Shown here: positions 24,437-34,750 of the stretch, in pieces | Numbering within the stretch: the first letter of the stretch is position 1 | Layout of the letters: each line of letters opens with the position of its first letter | Source of the DNA: Halohasta salina | GTDB lineage: Archaea; Halobacteriota; Halobacteria; Halobacteriales; Haloferacaceae | Assembly: GCF_024178165.1 (NCBI RefSeq) | Contig: NZ_JAMZIE010000002.1 | Coordinates: 1 to 64,000 of the forward strand | Length of the DNA: 64,000 nucleotides | Direction of reading: 5' to 3' | The notes under the pieces: generated by a model | Seen by the model: only the letters and a program-made list of their open reading frames with translations | Told to the model about the DNA's origin: nothing | Databases searched by the model: none | Made by a program: the position numbers and the translations under genes

Positions 24437-26188
24437 ATGACTGAGCACTTTGGAATTCTCGCACTGGCACCGCCATTGCTGGCGATCGTGCTGGCGATGA
24501 CGACCCGGCAGGTGTTGGTGTCGCTGTTCGCTGGCGTCTGGATCGGGGCGTTGCTCGTCGCCGGGTGGAACCCCATCGGTGCCACGGCGCTGACGATGGA
24601 CTGGCTCGTCGAGGTCCTACGGACCCCGTTCAACACCAAATTCGTCATCCTGATCCTCTTTATGGGGGCCGGGGCGGCGTTCATCTATCGGTCGGGTGGC
24701 ATTCTAGCCTTGGAACAGACAATTGGCGACCGGGTAACCACCGCCCGCGAGTCGCAGATCCTCACGTGGCTGATCGGCGTCTTCATTTTCTTCGATTCGT
24801 ATACGAGCACCGTCGTCACGGGTAACGCCACGCGCGAACTCGCCCAGGACAACGACTCCTCACGGGAGATGCACGCTTACGCGCTCGACTCGACGACCTC
24901 GCCGGTGACGACGTTCGGCCCGGTGTCAAACTGGATCGGCTTTCAGGTCTCGATGATCATCGTCGGCTTCGAGGCGACACAGGCCACCGTCGACCAGCTC
25001 GGGGTCACCGCTTTCGGGCTGTTTCTCCAGTCGATCCCGTGGAACATCTACTGTTTCATGGCGTTTTTCATGGTCGGCTTCATCGCCATCACCCAGCGGT
25101 TTTTCGGTCCGATGCTGAACGCCGAGTGGCGCGCCCGGTCGACCGGCCGGACGATCCGCGAGGATGCGACGCCGCTGTCGGACGTGTCGGCCGACGTCGG
25201 TGAACCCAGCGATAAGAACCCCTCGCTGATGAACTTCTTTGCGCCCATCCTCGTGTTGCTCGTGGTTGGGTTGGTCTCGATGTGGTATCTCGGCGGCGGC
25301 CCCCAACCCGACGTCGACATCGCGACGGCGTTTCAGGAGACCGACGTCGCCCTCGGCCTGCTGTACGGCTCCTTTGCGTTCATGCTCACCGGACTAGTCG
25401 GCTCGCTGGCCTACCGGACAATGGATCTCGAAGAGGCCAGCGAGGTCATCATTGATGGCTTCAAAACCATGGTCATCGCAATCGCGATCATCGTTCTCGC
25501 CTGGAGCATCGGGCTGGCCGCCGAGAACGTCGGCACCGCCCAGTACATCGTCGACCTACTGGTCGGCAGCGGCGTTCCCGGGAGCTTCCTGCCGTTGATC
25601 ATCTTTATCGCGGCGATGTTCGTCGCGTTCACGACGGGAACCTCGTGGGGGACGATGGCGATTTTGACGCCGCTGGCGATCCCGCTGAGTTTCGAACTCG
25701 TCGGCCCGTCGGTGCTGCCGGTCGTGATCGCGATGCTGTTCGGCGGGGCGATCTGGGGCGATCACAGTTCGCCGATCAGCGATACCACTGTCATGTCGTC
25801 GATCTTCGCCGGCTCGGACCACATCGACCACGTCAATACACAGATCCCCTTCGCCGCGACGGCCGCCGGTGTCACCGTGATCGTGCTCTTCCTGTATGGG
25901 TTCGGGATGCAGAGCCCGTTCGTCGCACTCCCGCTCGCGTTCGTGTTGACGGCCGCCGCGGTTGTCGTCCTCAACAAGCTTGATGCCCGCCGCAAGGGAC
26001 TCCCCGAGGTGATGCCGACCGCCGAGGAGATCGACTCGGGGGCCGTCGACATCGACCGGATCGAACGCGGCGAGGTCGACGGGGCCAACGGCAGTTACGA
26101 CCACCTCTCGGCGATCCCGGCGGTGACCGTCGGCGTGGTCGTCGCTTACCTCCTGCTCGTCTTCGGGTTCGCGATGCTCGGCGGCTGA
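24437..26188 (+). CDS. NhaC-family Na+/H+ antiporter or amino-acid exchanger
   Basis: A 583-residue membrane protein with about 12-13 hydrophobic stretches. Typical NhaC-family text includes TGNATRELAQDNDSSREMHAYALDSTTSPV, TGTSWGTMAILTPLAIPL and GDHSSPISDTTVMSSI (about residues 434-450). The family covers sodium/proton antiporters and related carriers such as tyrosine or malate/lactate exchangers, so the ion is not certain. A TATA-like TTAGATTTATT about 24401-24411 lies roughly 30 bases before the ATG at 24437, consistent with a leaderless message. An asparaginase-like gene follows on the same strand after 33 bases. Confidence 0.87.
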   Translation: MTEHFGILALAPPLLAIVLAMTTRQVLVSLFAGVWIGALLVAGWNPIGATALTMDWLVEVLRTPFNTKFVILILFMGAGAAFIYRSGGILALEQTIGDRVTTARESQILTWLIGVFIFFDSYTSTVVTGNATRELAQDNDSSREMHAYALDSTTSPVTTFGPVSNWIGFQVSMIIVGFEATQATVDQLGVTAFGLFLQSIPWNIYCFMAFFMVGFIAITQRFFGPMLNAEWRARSTGRTIREDATPLSDVSADVGEPSDKNPSLMNFFAPILVLLVVGLVSMWYLGGGPQPDVDIATAFQETDVALGLLYGSFAFMLTGLVGSLAYRTMDLEEASEVIIDGFKTMVIAIAIIVLAWSIGLAAENVGTAQYIVDLLVGSGVPGSFLPLIIFIAAMFVAFTTGTSWGTMAILTPLAIPLSFELVGPSVLPVVIAMLFGGAIWGDHSSPISDTTVMSSIFAGSDHIDHVNTQIPFAATAAGVTVIVLFLYGFGMQSPFVALPLAFVLTAAAVVVLNKLDARRKGLPEVMPTAEEIDSGAVDIDRIERGEVDGANGSYDHLSAIPAVTVGVVVAYLLLVFGFAMLGG

Positions 26189-26221
26189 TCGGTCGACGAT
26201 GACCACGACCCAACTCGGACC

Positions 26222-26716
26222 ATGGACGACACGTACATCCACTTCCTGACCACGGGTGGCACGATCGACAAGGAGTATCGCACACGGCGCGGGACGCGCA
26301 ACCTCACTGTTGGTCCGCCTGCAGTCGAGCGGATCCTCGACACCATCGTCCCCGAGCCGACCTTCGAGTATGCCGTCGAGACCGTCTGCAAGAAGGACAG
26401 CCTCGATGTCGACGCCGACGACAGGGCACAGGTCGCGGCGGCGTGTCGGGAGGCTCCGGGCGAGCAGGTCGTCATCACCCACGGCACCGACACGATGACG
26501 GAGACGGCTGCGGCGCTGGACGGCGACAAGACGGTTGTACTCACCGGTGCGGCCACACCCCAGCGGATGGTCGACTCGGATGCGGCGTTCAACGTCGGCA
26601 CGGCCATCGGTGCGGTCCAAACGCTCGATTCCGGCGTCTACATCGCAATGGGCGGCGGCGTCTACCCACACGACGCCGTCGAAAAACGCGACGACGGACA
26701 GTTCGCCCCGAAATAG
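26222..26716 (+). CDS. single-domain asparaginase-like protein
   Basis: A 164-residue protein corresponding to the N-terminal catalytic domain of type I/II L-asparaginases. The two catalytic blocks are present: FLTTGGTIDKEY (residues 8-19) with the nucleophile Thr, and ITHGTDTMTETA (about 82-93) with the Thr-Asp pair. The ~150-residue C-terminal domain of full-length enzymes, which helps form the tetramer active site, is absent without sign of a frameshift. Such short asparaginase-domain proteins recur in archaea and their activity is not established. It may be co-transcribed with the NhaC-type carrier just upstream. Confidence 0.85.
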   Translation: MDDTYIHFLTTGGTIDKEYRTRRGTRNLTVGPPAVERILDTIVPEPTFEYAVETVCKKDSLDVDADDRAQVAAACREAPGEQVVITHGTDTMTETAAALDGDKTVVLTGAATPQRMVDSDAAFNVGTAIGAVQTLDSGVYIAMGGGVYPHDAVEKRDDGQFAPK

Positions 26717-31694: not shown

Positions 31695-31977
31695 ATTACT
31701 GTACTCGTAGGAGTCGGTGTTTAACGTTTCGACACGGAGAATGTTGGCAATCACACACCATCCGCACGATTCATCACTAGGCTGTTTCGATCCCGCTGCG
31801 CGTCACGGCTCCGGCAGCCGATCGACCCCGCACTGTCGGTAGCCGGTCCGCCGAATCGGCCGCAATCGGGACCGAGGCGGCTGCTGCGGGTCGACCGGCC
31901 GATCCGGCGGTTACCCGTACAATATATCAGAGATAATGAAATATACTTTTGAACGTTACTGTTTAACGACATAATAT

Positions 31978-32490
31978 ATGTCGGAGTCCAACACGGAGCG
32001 GCCGGACGACACGCCCTGTCAGATGGAGATCGTGTTCGATCAGTCGACGCCGCCCGACGACTGTCGGACCACCGGCAACCGCGTGCGGTGTGCGCCGGTC
32101 TCTCACCACGCCGACCCGCTGTCGATCGAGAGCGGCGTCACGATCTGCAAGGAGTTCGGCTACGACGAGATCAAGGGCAGTGGGATGATGCGGGCCGGCG
32201 ACATCGTCCAGCCGGCCAACCAGCTCGATTCCGAGTTCGGCGACCGCGTCACTGGCGGCCTGTTCGCCGACGTGATGACGCCGGCCCACAGCGCCTATCC
32301 GATGACCGTCTTCCACGGTTTCCGGCTCGTGCCCGCCGTCGACGGGTTCGGTTTCGCCACCTCGGTCGGTTCGAAAGTCGAAAACCACTTCGAGACGGCC
32401 GATCTCGTCCGGACGAGTCACAACCGGCTGACCGTCATCACCAACACCGATCAGTTCTCACAGCGGCTGCTCAAATCACACACCGACTGA
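31978..32490 (+). CDS. uncharacterised 170-residue protein
   Basis: Not recognised. It encodes 170 residues without signal peptide or membrane helix. Features include a Cys pair in DDCRTTGNRVRCAPVSHHAD (residues 27-46), TICKEFGYDEIKGSGMMRAGD (about 56-76) and a beta-rich C-terminal half (VFHGFRLVPAVDGFGFATSVG). Codon use and acidity are like its neighbours. A TATA-like GAAATATACTTTT at about 31939-31951 lies 30 bases before the ATG, so the gene looks active and leaderless. Its stop codon TGA is followed, with no spacer, by a 79-bp hairpin repeat. Confidence 0.7.
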   Translation: MSESNTERPDDTPCQMEIVFDQSTPPDDCRTTGNRVRCAPVSHHADPLSIESGVTICKEFGYDEIKGSGMMRAGDIVQPANQLDSEFGDRVTGGLFADVMTPAHSAYPMTVFHGFRLVPAVDGFGFATSVGSKVENHFETADLVRTSHNRLTVITNTDQFSQRLLKSHTD

Positions 32491-32569
32491 TACTGGTTAT
32501 TGTAGACGGTTACCGCTTCGACCGCCGCCCGGTGGGCGGTCGAGCGGCAACTTCCTACAATAATCCGTA
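32491..32569 (+). repeat. 79-bp stop-codon-abutting hairpin repeat, copy A
   Basis: This element starts on the base after the TGA of the preceding gene. It folds into one long imperfect hairpin: TAC/GTA and GG/CC at the base, a perfect 9-bp stem (TTATTGTAG at 32497-32505 with CTACAATAA at 32555-32563), then CCGCT/AGCGG and an 8-bp top stem CGACCGCC/GGCGGTCG with loop GCCCGGTG. Copy B at 33637 matches at 66 of 79 positions in the same orientation. No coding potential is evident. Confidence 0.75.
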
Positions 32570-33331
32570 TGAGTGGCGGCCCCACTCCGGTCGCTTTGCT
32601 GACTACCCCGATGTGCCCTCCCGGTCCGATTCGCCCTCCCGCTTGGTCGACCGCCGGCCGTATTGGTACGGTCCCCCGGCTCACGTGTCGACAGCACGGC
32701 CCGAAGCTGGCGGGCGCTGTGGGAGCGACACCGTTGACAGGCGGGACCTCGGACGATTGTACTCGGCAGCGATGAAGGAGTGGGTGGCCACCGGAAGCCG
32801 GTGGTGGGACAACAGGAACAGCCGGAACGTGGTGCCTCAGCGGCGACGTCGGCGCGAGGTCCGCCGGAAGACGACGTTCGACGACTCCCGCAGGCGACCG
32901 TAGCGTGTCGAGCTGTGGGTCGTCGACCGGAACCGTTCGTACTGGTTCTCATTACTCGTCGTTCGTTTGTTTTTTGCTGGCTTTCGTACCATCATCACAC
33001 TCAATTCAACGGCTCAGGTATGTATTTGTGTGACTAACGCGGCAATATATCGAGCATGCTCGAAATTCCTTGACGCTGCGCAAAGAGAAACTCGGTTCGG
33101 AGTAAATAGTTCGGATCTCGGGCCGCCGATGCGAGTATATCTGTGTGTTTGTAAACTATAACAGATATTAAGGCTCGTTTTGAGCGATTCTATGTGCGAT
33201 TGGTGGAAGAATATTCATTATAGTCTCCCAGCCGTCCTTCCCGGATATGAAACCGAGGCCGTAGGTGGGGCCGCAGTCGGCGTGGCGTGTCGACTGGGGT
33301 GTGTAGGGTCTCACCTATTTCGCGCGGCAGA
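32570..33331. other. gene-poor intergenic stretch
   Basis: No supportable gene. 32570-32930 is G+C-rich with only low-complexity Arg/Gly/Pro reading frames; it contains a CCACCGGAAGCCGGTGG hairpin (32794-32810). 32935-33240 turns clearly A+T-rich (GTTTGTTTTTTGC, AATATATCGAGCATGCTCG with a 10-bp palindrome, AGATATTAAGG). The composition break suggests inserted or decayed DNA. I tested the G+C-rich half for SRP RNA and RNase P core motifs and did not find them. Confidence 0.5.
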
Positions 33332-33355
33332 AATGCGCCGGCCGGGATTTGAACC
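33332..33355 (-). repeat. duplicated 3' end of tRNA-Gly (tRNA remnant)
   Basis: These 24 bases are identical to 33456-33479, the acceptor 3' strand and T-arm side of the tRNA-Gly gene, in the same orientation and 124 bases away. The rest of a tRNA is missing. An inverted T-arm-like word (GGTTCAAATCCCTCTTG) lies between the copies at 33403-33419. A hairpin of 10 bp (33424-33433 with 33448-33457) fills the remainder. This is the form of an att-site duplication at a tRNA 3' end. Confidence 0.65.
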
Positions 33356-33457
33356 GGAGCAAGACGGTCGCGCTCACCGCGTTCGCGCGCTGCGACTCGC
33401 AGGGTTCAAATCCCTCTTGTCGATTCCTGCGGCTCGCGGAGTTGCTCGCCGCAGGAA

Positions 33458-33528
33458 TGCGCCGGCCGGGATTTGAACCCGGGCCATGAGCTTGGAAGGC
33501 TCAGGTCCTACCACTAGACCACCGGCGC
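33458..33528 (-). tRNA. tRNA-Gly (anticodon UCC)
   Basis: Read on the minus strand it starts GCGCCGGTGGTCTAGTGGTA, has the anticodon arm TGAGC-CTTCCAA-GCTCA with anticodon TCC, a T arm CCCGGGTTCAAATCCCGG, and the acceptor GCGCCGG/CCGGCGC with discriminator A. Length is 71 bases without an encoded CCA. No intron is seen. A duplicated piece of its 3' end lies 124 bases downstream in the direction of transcription. Confidence 0.95.
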
Positions 33529-33636
33529 GCGAGACGTCGACCGCGGCAACACGTCGCGTTCCAACGCCGCTGTATCGACGTACCCCACAGTTCTCGACCG
33601 GCCATTAATTACCTTACCGTTTCGCCGCGAGCGTCA

Positions 33637-33715
33637 TACTGGTTATCGGAGACGGTTCCCGCACCGACCGCCGCCCGGTGAGCGGTCGAGCGGTACCTTC
33701 CTCAAGTACTCCGTC
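33637..33715 (+). repeat. 79-bp stop-codon-abutting hairpin repeat, copy B
   Basis: Aligned to copy A it differs at 13 of 79 positions with no gaps. The central core (CGACCGCCGCCCGGTG, then GCGGTCGAGCGG) is nearly identical, with changes concentrated in the outer stem. The hairpin is kept: GAG/CTC, GGT/ACC, CCGC/GCGG and CGACCGC/GCGGTCG. It ends on the base before the TAA of the minus-strand flavoprotein gene, so it too lies directly at a gene's 3' end, but in the opposite orientation relative to that gene. Confidence 0.75.
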
Positions 33716-34750
33716 TTAGTCGTCGCCGAAACTCCGGGCCGCAGCCTGTAGATCGGCCGACACCGCCGGGACCTCGCTTTCGGCGACCGGCCCTTCGGCC
33801 TCGATCTCCGCGAGTGATTTGGGATACGTCCGCAGTTCCTTGTGGATCGCCAACCCCGCCTTCGCGCCCTTGCCCATCGCCACCGGTACCTGATTGTGGC
33901 CCGGCGTGATGTCGCCGACCGCATAGACGCCCTCAACGCTGGTTCGGCCGTGATCGTCGACGACGACCGTCCCGTCGTCGTTCAGTTCACAGTCCAGCGC
34001 CTCCGCCAACTCGGTGTTGTAGTTCGAGCCGTACATGGCGAAGCCGCCCCTGTACTCCCGGACCGTCCCGTCCTCGAACTCGAAGCTTTTGAGCCAGCCG
34101 TCGTCGCCTTTGGTCATCCCCGTGATGTCCTCGTGGATGACGTCGACCGGGTGGGCCTTGACCAGCCGCTGGGTCTCGTCGCTCCACTCGATGTCGTCAC
34201 CGCGGGTGAGGATGTCGACCTCGTCGGTGAAGTTGAGCATGATCATCGCCACGTGGGCGGCGGCCTCGCCGGTCCCCATCACGTACACCGATTCGTCGAT
34301 GAACATGTAGGCATCACAGTGGAGACAGTAGTGCAGTCCCTTCCCGGTCCGCGGCAGCGGCGGCTCCGGGCGCTCGTCGGAAAACCCGACGCCGAGGACC
34401 ACGCGGTCGGCGAGGACGTCCGCCGAGTTCCCACGCAGGTGGAACCGGCCGTCATCGGTACGTTCGATCTCGGTGACGAGGTCCCGGATGACGTCGCCGC
34501 CGTACTCTTCGACCTGCTCGGTTGCGGTCCCGAGGAACTCGTTGCCCGAGACGTCCTCGGTGACGCCGATCACGTTGTGTGTGTCGAGCATCATCGCCGC
34601 GCGGCCGCCCCCGCGGTCCACCACGACAGTATCGTGGCCGAGTCGCGTGGTGTACAACGCCGCCGACAGTCCGGCCGGTCCCCCGCCAACGACCGCGACT
34701 TCGTAGCTTTCAGCGCCCGATTCGGCGTCCGCTCCCTCTGTCTCACTCAT
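33716..34750 (-). CDS. thioredoxin-reductase-like FAD/NAD(P) oxidoreductase
   Basis: A 344-residue flavoprotein of the thioredoxin-reductase superfamily. The FAD motif is VAVVGGGPAGLSAALYTTRLG (about residues 18-38), the redox pair is YCLHCDAY (near 140), a glycine motif YVMGTGEAAAH follows near 157, and GVYAVGDITPG is near 290. The NAD motif reads GTGEAA rather than the usual GxGxxA/G with downstream Arg, so its electron donor may differ from NADPH, as in ferredoxin- or NADH-linked relatives. It is a second homologue beside a standard TrxB at 35636. The 79-bp repeat copy B directly follows its stop. Confidence 0.87.
   Translation of the reverse strand: MSETEGADAESGAESYEVAVVGGGPAGLSAALYTTRLGHDTVVVDRGGGRAAMMLDTHNVIGVTEDVSGNEFLGTATEQVEEYGGDVIRDLVTEIERTDDGRFHLRGNSADVLADRVVLGVGFSDERPEPPLPRTGKGLHYCLHCDAYMFIDESVYVMGTGEAAAHVAMIMLNFTDEVDILTRGDDIEWSDETQRLVKAHPVDVIHEDITGMTKGDDGWLKSFEFEDGTVREYRGGFAMYGSNYNTELAEALDCELNDDGTVVVDDHGRTSVEGVYAVGDITPGHNQVPVAMGKGAKAGLAIHKELRTYPKSLAEIEAEGPVAESEVPAVSADLQAAARSFGDD

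Follow-up and report, generated by a model that had tools for sequence, protein, structure and literature searches.

The window, a stretch of 64,000 nucleotides of the Halohasta salina genome, carries two copies of a 79-bp palindromic element, both in the plus orientation and both in direct contact with a stop codon. Copy A (32491..32569) is intact, runs from TAC to GTA, and has its first base directly after the TGA of a plus-strand ORF of 170 amino acids (31978..32490), which is of unknown function and has no Pfam match. Copy B (33637..33715) is diverged and has its last base directly before the TAA of a flavoprotein gene on the minus strand (33716..34750; Pyr_redox_2, PF07992, E 1e-34). Re-alignment agrees with the coordinates, the length of 79 bp and the ungapped identity of 66/79 given in the initial annotation, and with the zero spacing to a stop codon that it reported for both copies. 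A repeat finder aligned the two copies over 92 nt, with 82% identity. Each end of copy A is formed by the outer box of a terminal inverted repeat, TACnGnTTATTGTAG at the left (32491..32505, plus strand) and the matching box at the right (32555..32569, minus strand), both conserved across 54 aligned copies. Identical triplets lie outside these boxes, with the TGA stop of the 170-aa ORF (32488..32490, plus strand) on one side and a second TGA (32570..32572, plus strand) on the other. The triplets next to copy B are a TCA on the far side (33634..33636, minus strand, where it reads TGA) and, on the gene side, what is now a TTA (33716..33718, minus strand), which differs from TCA at one position and serves the flavoprotein gene as its TAA stop. 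The 170-aa ORF belongs to a stretch (~31736-33455) that is missing from the sister genome G003. A tRNA-Gly 3'-end fragment lies at the edge of this stretch, ~100 bp beyond an intact tRNA-Gly gene (33329-33356 and 33458-33528), and looks like a trace of tRNA-targeted integration.

Copy A is a strong hairpin (-45.6 kcal/mol, z = -8.0 vs shuffled sequence), with 13 of the 15 outer stem positions paired. In copy B the hairpin is decayed; pairing in the outer stem is disrupted to a large extent (8/15 positions paired), and the fold is consequently weak (z = -1.7). The initial observation of outer stems that differ but still pair is thus borne out by copy A but not by copy B.

The likeness of copies A and B is not a matter of chance, since further copies occur in the window genome and in many related genomes. 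Two more divergent copies of the window genome (C18, about 186689-186773, and C20, about 240177-240258) each start directly 3' of a stop codon. DNA-level searches and a covariance model derived from 12 copies, with copy A as best match (101 bits), located the element in 47 of the 171 genomes of the window's family, in 13 of 28 genera. At the level of the phylum, 22 of 295 genomes gave a match; every matching genome falls within the window's order, and four families are represented. The sequence sampled beyond these matches comprised individual loci, 800 contiguous kb of Halomicrobium katesii DSM 19301 (G319) and one annotated plasmid, in place of genome-wide annotation. An exact palindrome pattern found 61 copies in G319 and, read backwards, none in the 392 genomes of the order that were searched. 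The 800 kb of G319 held 53 candidate palindromes in several subfamilies of 76-80 bp with the common ends TAC-n-G....TTGTA. Matches to the exact pattern in bacteria varied in length and were taken as chance, and phage records gave no match to the element; 72 viral contigs match the bare 16-bp half-site. The initial annotation had foreseen further copies and their clustering near stop codons, and copies do sit at exactly 0 bases from stop codons. It had also not recognised a named family. In Rfam, the window copies returned mir-920 alone, far below the cut-off, and three other copies had no match at the gathering threshold; no description of the palindrome was found in the open papers searched. 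This abundant repeat of four haloarchaeal families is therefore apparently undescribed and unnamed, both in Rfam and in those papers.

The distribution of the copies points to movement. In a sample of 75 copies from G319, 15 are identical, and copies with 92% identity adjoin different genes in different species; the occurrence of such copies beside unrelated genes means that the element has moved. Identical 3-bp flanks surround 68 of the 75 copies (38 TGA/TGA, 29 TCA/TCA and one TTA/TTA, the latter at a TAA stop). Copies in other genera show like flanks, all six copies from newly found genomes of further families carry a 3-bp direct repeat, and across the four families intact copies have an exact repeat of this length, which is nearly always TGA/TGA or TCA/TCA. 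The rare matching flanks that depart from the TSA form, i.e., TTA (twice), AGT and GAC, indicate that the repeat was copied from the target and is not part of the element. Likewise, the asymmetric parts of the element occur in both orientations relative to the TGA, which places the TGA outside it. When 35 full-length copies are aligned, the central base of the flanking triplet pairs with its mirror in 0/35, and the 16 pairs of the neighbouring helix are formed in 96% of cells, as applies to a direct repeat outside a palindrome.

Empty sites give further support. The site of copy B reads GTCGTCAGTCGTCGCC in G003 and CTTAGTCGTCGCC in G002, where the window genome has the element plus an extra triplet. 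Both relatives have one uninterrupted stop codon at this site, at the end of the same gene, with a single triplet, TCA in G003 and TTA in G002. The triplets around copy B are now unequal by one base (TCA/TTA), which counts against the mobile-element reading. Copy A has no such comparison because its stretch is absent in G003. At a second site, the gap length differs by 82 bp (79+3) between G319 and G224; for two other G319 copies the empty-site alignment with G224 is not clean at base level. We conclude that the abutment to stop codons arises because the insertion falls inside the stop codon and duplicates it. Chains of elements that share one TGA/TCA were also observed (L097 1417-1579, L160 1441-1603, L145 and L151), and are read as the result of a new element entering the triplet that a previous insertion had duplicated.

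Considering these findings, the element is very probably a non-autonomous, fully palindromic, MITE-like element that is moved in trans, generates a 3-bp target duplication and, when it lands in a stop codon, its most frequent site, thereby restores that codon. Of the two roles that had been envisaged at the outset, the 3-bp duplication, the empty site and the dispersal of near-identical copies favor that of a mobile element with 3' ends as its target. The other role, an RNA signal at the 3' end in which a hairpin selected at gene ends terminates transcription in both directions or stabilises the mRNA, would agree with the strong hairpin of copy A, the covariation in the stem and the exact abutment to stops. 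As the cause of the position, however, it is not supported: the duplication and the empty site show insertion, and the near-identical copies beside unrelated genes also speak against it. Besides, 37 of the 75 sampled G319 copies are not at a predicted stop, the elements show no preferred orientation with respect to the gene (17:16 in the main subfamily of G319), neither copy A nor copy B is followed by a T-run 3' of the hairpin, and the outer stem of copy B is mostly gone next to an intact gene. We regard this explanation as highly unlikely.

The preference of the mobile element for stop codons was quantified in the 800 kb of G319, where genes were predicted with a simple codon-usage caller, so that the site classes are approximate. 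Insertions were found at 19 of 375 TGA stops (5.1%). For the remaining TGA/TCA sites, the counts were 5/591 in the 80 bp 3' of genes (0.85%), 1/632 in the 80 bp 5' of genes, 12/4889 in the rest of the intergenic DNA and 4/10592 at genic positions (0.04%). The odds ratio for stops is 6.3 against the 3' region (p = 5e-5) and 18 against all non-coding sites (p = 1e-14). On the NCBI-annotated plasmid pHmuk01 of H. mukohataei, 6 of 9 copies lie at 0 bp from an annotated stop, which is TGA in all cases. The wider target consensus at stops is CGAC-TGA-GACGG, which gene ends of the Asp-TGA type (GAC TGA) fit, and insertions away from stops show a weaker form of this motif in which the G after TGA is kept. 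No copies were found at TAG stops, although TAG is common (30/170 on pHmuk01 and 48/138 predicted genes). The lack of TAG insertions, together with the wider consensus, supports that the machinery reads a DNA sequence and not translation termination. The targeting of 3' ends suggested initially is therefore upheld as an enrichment at stops, but not as a recognition of stops as such, the signal being a DNA consensus of ~12 bp.

A machinery that truly recognises stop codons, or the ends of translation or transcription, beyond the DNA sequence, would be in line with the preference that persists after adjusting for the motif. Stops are then still favored over other intergenic sites (logit coefficient 2.0-2.3), and weakly so over the next 80 bp (odds ratio 2.4-3.0, with 95% limits of 0.83-6.67 and 1.12-7.93). 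Survival bias at 3' ends yields a like pattern, however, and both the absence of TAG insertions and the weaker motif with G after TGA at the non-stop insertions speak against this possibility, which we find improbable. The motif and the tolerance of insertions at 3' ends explain most of the stop bias, and survival of copies where they do no harm plausibly accounts for the remainder, so that it is possible to account for the pattern with no recognition of stops as such.

The stem of the element contains two parts conserved in sequence, TACnGnTTATTGTAG and TTACCGG, which enclose a 4 x 4 internal loop with one pair formed in 0/35 copies. The sequence of the inner stem varies by subfamily yet remains paired in 93.5% of cells, with double changes in 22 of 32 pairs, and the covariation score is 0.451, compared with 0.149 in shuffled alignments and at most 0.129 in slid ones. 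The pairing and the loop argue for a recognised hairpin, which is probably recognised as DNA, given that the orientation to the gene is random. The two commonest forms of the G319 sample (15 and 13 copies) share their arms and differ solely by an inverted 11-nt loop, and hence the arms also recombine or flip. Compensatory changes could accordingly stem from templated arm-to-arm repair, i.e., quasi-palindrome correction, instead of selection on the fold, a process compatible with a mobile element. This process should however homogenise the internal loop too, including the position that pairs in none of the 35 copies, and as a general explanation we consider it possible but rather doubtful. Thus, for the selection on the fold that was suggested initially, the compensatory change is strong, but part of the covariation may be mechanical in origin.

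Bacterial REP/BIME/REPIN sequences, which are associated with RAYTs, are likewise many-copy extragenic palindromes and often lie at gene ends, and REPs are linked to Y1 enzymes. The haloarchaeal PATEs, derived from IS605, also resemble the present element in lacking a transposase and in being palindromic in part. In a REP/RAYT-type or IS200/IS605-derived (PATE) origin, the palindrome would be moved as ssDNA by a Y1 HUH transposase, with the flanking TGA as cleavage site. The hairpin of the whole element with its conserved unpaired internal loop would suit such a mode, and the GTAG motif of the outer box is reminiscent of GTAG-tagged REPs, whose ends have been reported to supply neighbouring ORFs with a stop codon, namely TAG (PMC3733652). 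On the other hand, no target duplication is made by Y1 elements of the IS605 type (PMC3119063), yet the flanks TTA/TTA, AGT/AGT and GAC/GAC occur in the present family. PATEs have neither terminal inverted repeats nor target duplication (PMC3119063), and the present element has both. Published REPs are shorter (PMC3733652, PMC12306157). They are 20-40 bp long and carry the tag at one end, whereas the present element measures 79-80 bp and has symmetric ends. Moreover, the copy-rich genome G035 gave no match to Y1_Tnp (PF01797); the other copy-rich genomes have 1-4 matches. A Y1-mediated origin is therefore highly unlikely.

The small mobile repeats SMR-A and SMR-B of Haloquadratum walsbyi also resemble the present element, as they are haloarchaeal, non-coding and about 80-110 bp long, with inverted terminal repeats. 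In the SMRs these repeats match no known transposon and the mode of movement is unknown (PMC3119063); for the present family, no transposon with such ends was found among the sequences searched. SMRs have been reported to lack target duplication, and SMR-A to insert into PATE/IS605 palindromes (PMC3119063); in contrast, the present family duplicates 3 bp of TSA form and favors stop codons. With MITEs of DDE insertion sequences it shares a short (76-80 bp), non-coding sequence, terminal inverted repeats (in 54 copies), a duplication of fixed length (3 bp in 68/75), a high copy number and both orientations. It differs from them in being wholly palindromic with a covarying inner stem, in the lack of an autonomous parent among the sequences searched and in a target that is often a stop codon; a MITE needs only its ends, so that a palindrome maintained over the whole 79 bp counts against this assignment. 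The best reading is a new, fully palindromic family of MITEs or small mobile repeats that is moved in trans.

Based on the duplication, the empty site of copy B, the dispersal, the target consensus, the enrichment at stops and the pairing with compensatory change, we propose a theoretical scheme for the insertion of this family. An enzyme supplied in trans would cut both ends of the element, recognising a terminal inverted repeat composed of the outer box TACnGnTTATTGTAG, a 4-nt spacer and the inner box TTACCGG. Insertion would then follow, through cuts staggered by 3 bp, at a short target of approximate palindromic symmetry, CGAC-TGA-GACGG with the core TSA (in full, CGACTGAGACGG), and the three target bases would be duplicated. 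When the target is a TGA stop, the gene-side duplicate would restore the stop exactly, leaving the protein unchanged and the element directly 3' of the gene. Stops would be enriched as Asp-TGA gene ends fit the target and insertions there are tolerated, and the loss of badly placed copies may add to this bias. The hairpin itself, with its internal loop, may be needed for mobilisation as extruded DNA. The fixed stagger suggests a DDE-type transposase acting in trans as the likeliest mover. A different combination, in which the whole-element hairpin with its internal loop is mobilised with 3-bp duplications and a stop preference beyond the target sequence, would amount to a self-repairing insertion into stops by an enzyme other than a recognised element-linked transposase; we consider this unlikely.

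The search for an autonomous parent of the proposed family covered part of the candidate genomes. No transposon with these ends was present among lone TIR pairs in the 800 kb of G319 or among lone half-sites in G263, G466, G428 and G224. The IS5-family groups such as IS1031 use 3-bp TNA targets and in this are like the present family; none of the 30 DDE_Tnp_1 (PF01609) loci examined in four copy-carrying genomes of the genus Halomicrobium was surrounded by matching ends. Three candidates were rejected: in C1 159340-161617, a copy has been entered by another IS, whose end is GGGTGTCATAGAA; in C2 172327-173564, two copies flank an ordinary gene; and the half-element L032 ends a small gene with no transposase features and was taken as a remnant.

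With these elements, a parasite is seen to accumulate in a compact genome without altering its proteins, since it inserts at a stop codon and makes a second copy of that codon. Every stop insertion sets a strong hairpin right after the stop, providing natural experiments on 3'-UTR structure in archaeal mRNA. The insertions can also be used as strain markers, and the mobilising enzyme is a clear target for discovery.

Other mobile sequences were observed in contact with the palindrome. A different IS, with ends GAGGGTGTCATAGAA, occurs several times inside palindrome copies near the TTGTAG box (L089 about 1570, L029 1560, L181 19362 / L182 and L458 1044), so that the palindrome itself seems to be targeted by another IS. 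One G319 copy (C1 25898-25977, L175) separates a DDE_Tnp_1 match into two segments (25695-25898 and 25943-26488) and so appears to have interrupted a gene for a transposase. Another palindromic repeat, 84 bp long and of the form TATAGTA..CATTGAAA..TACTATA, has ~8 copies in the 800 kb of G319 (C1 63793-63876, 70948-71031 and 85187-85270, among others; L177, L178), one of which is absent at the syntenic site of G224.
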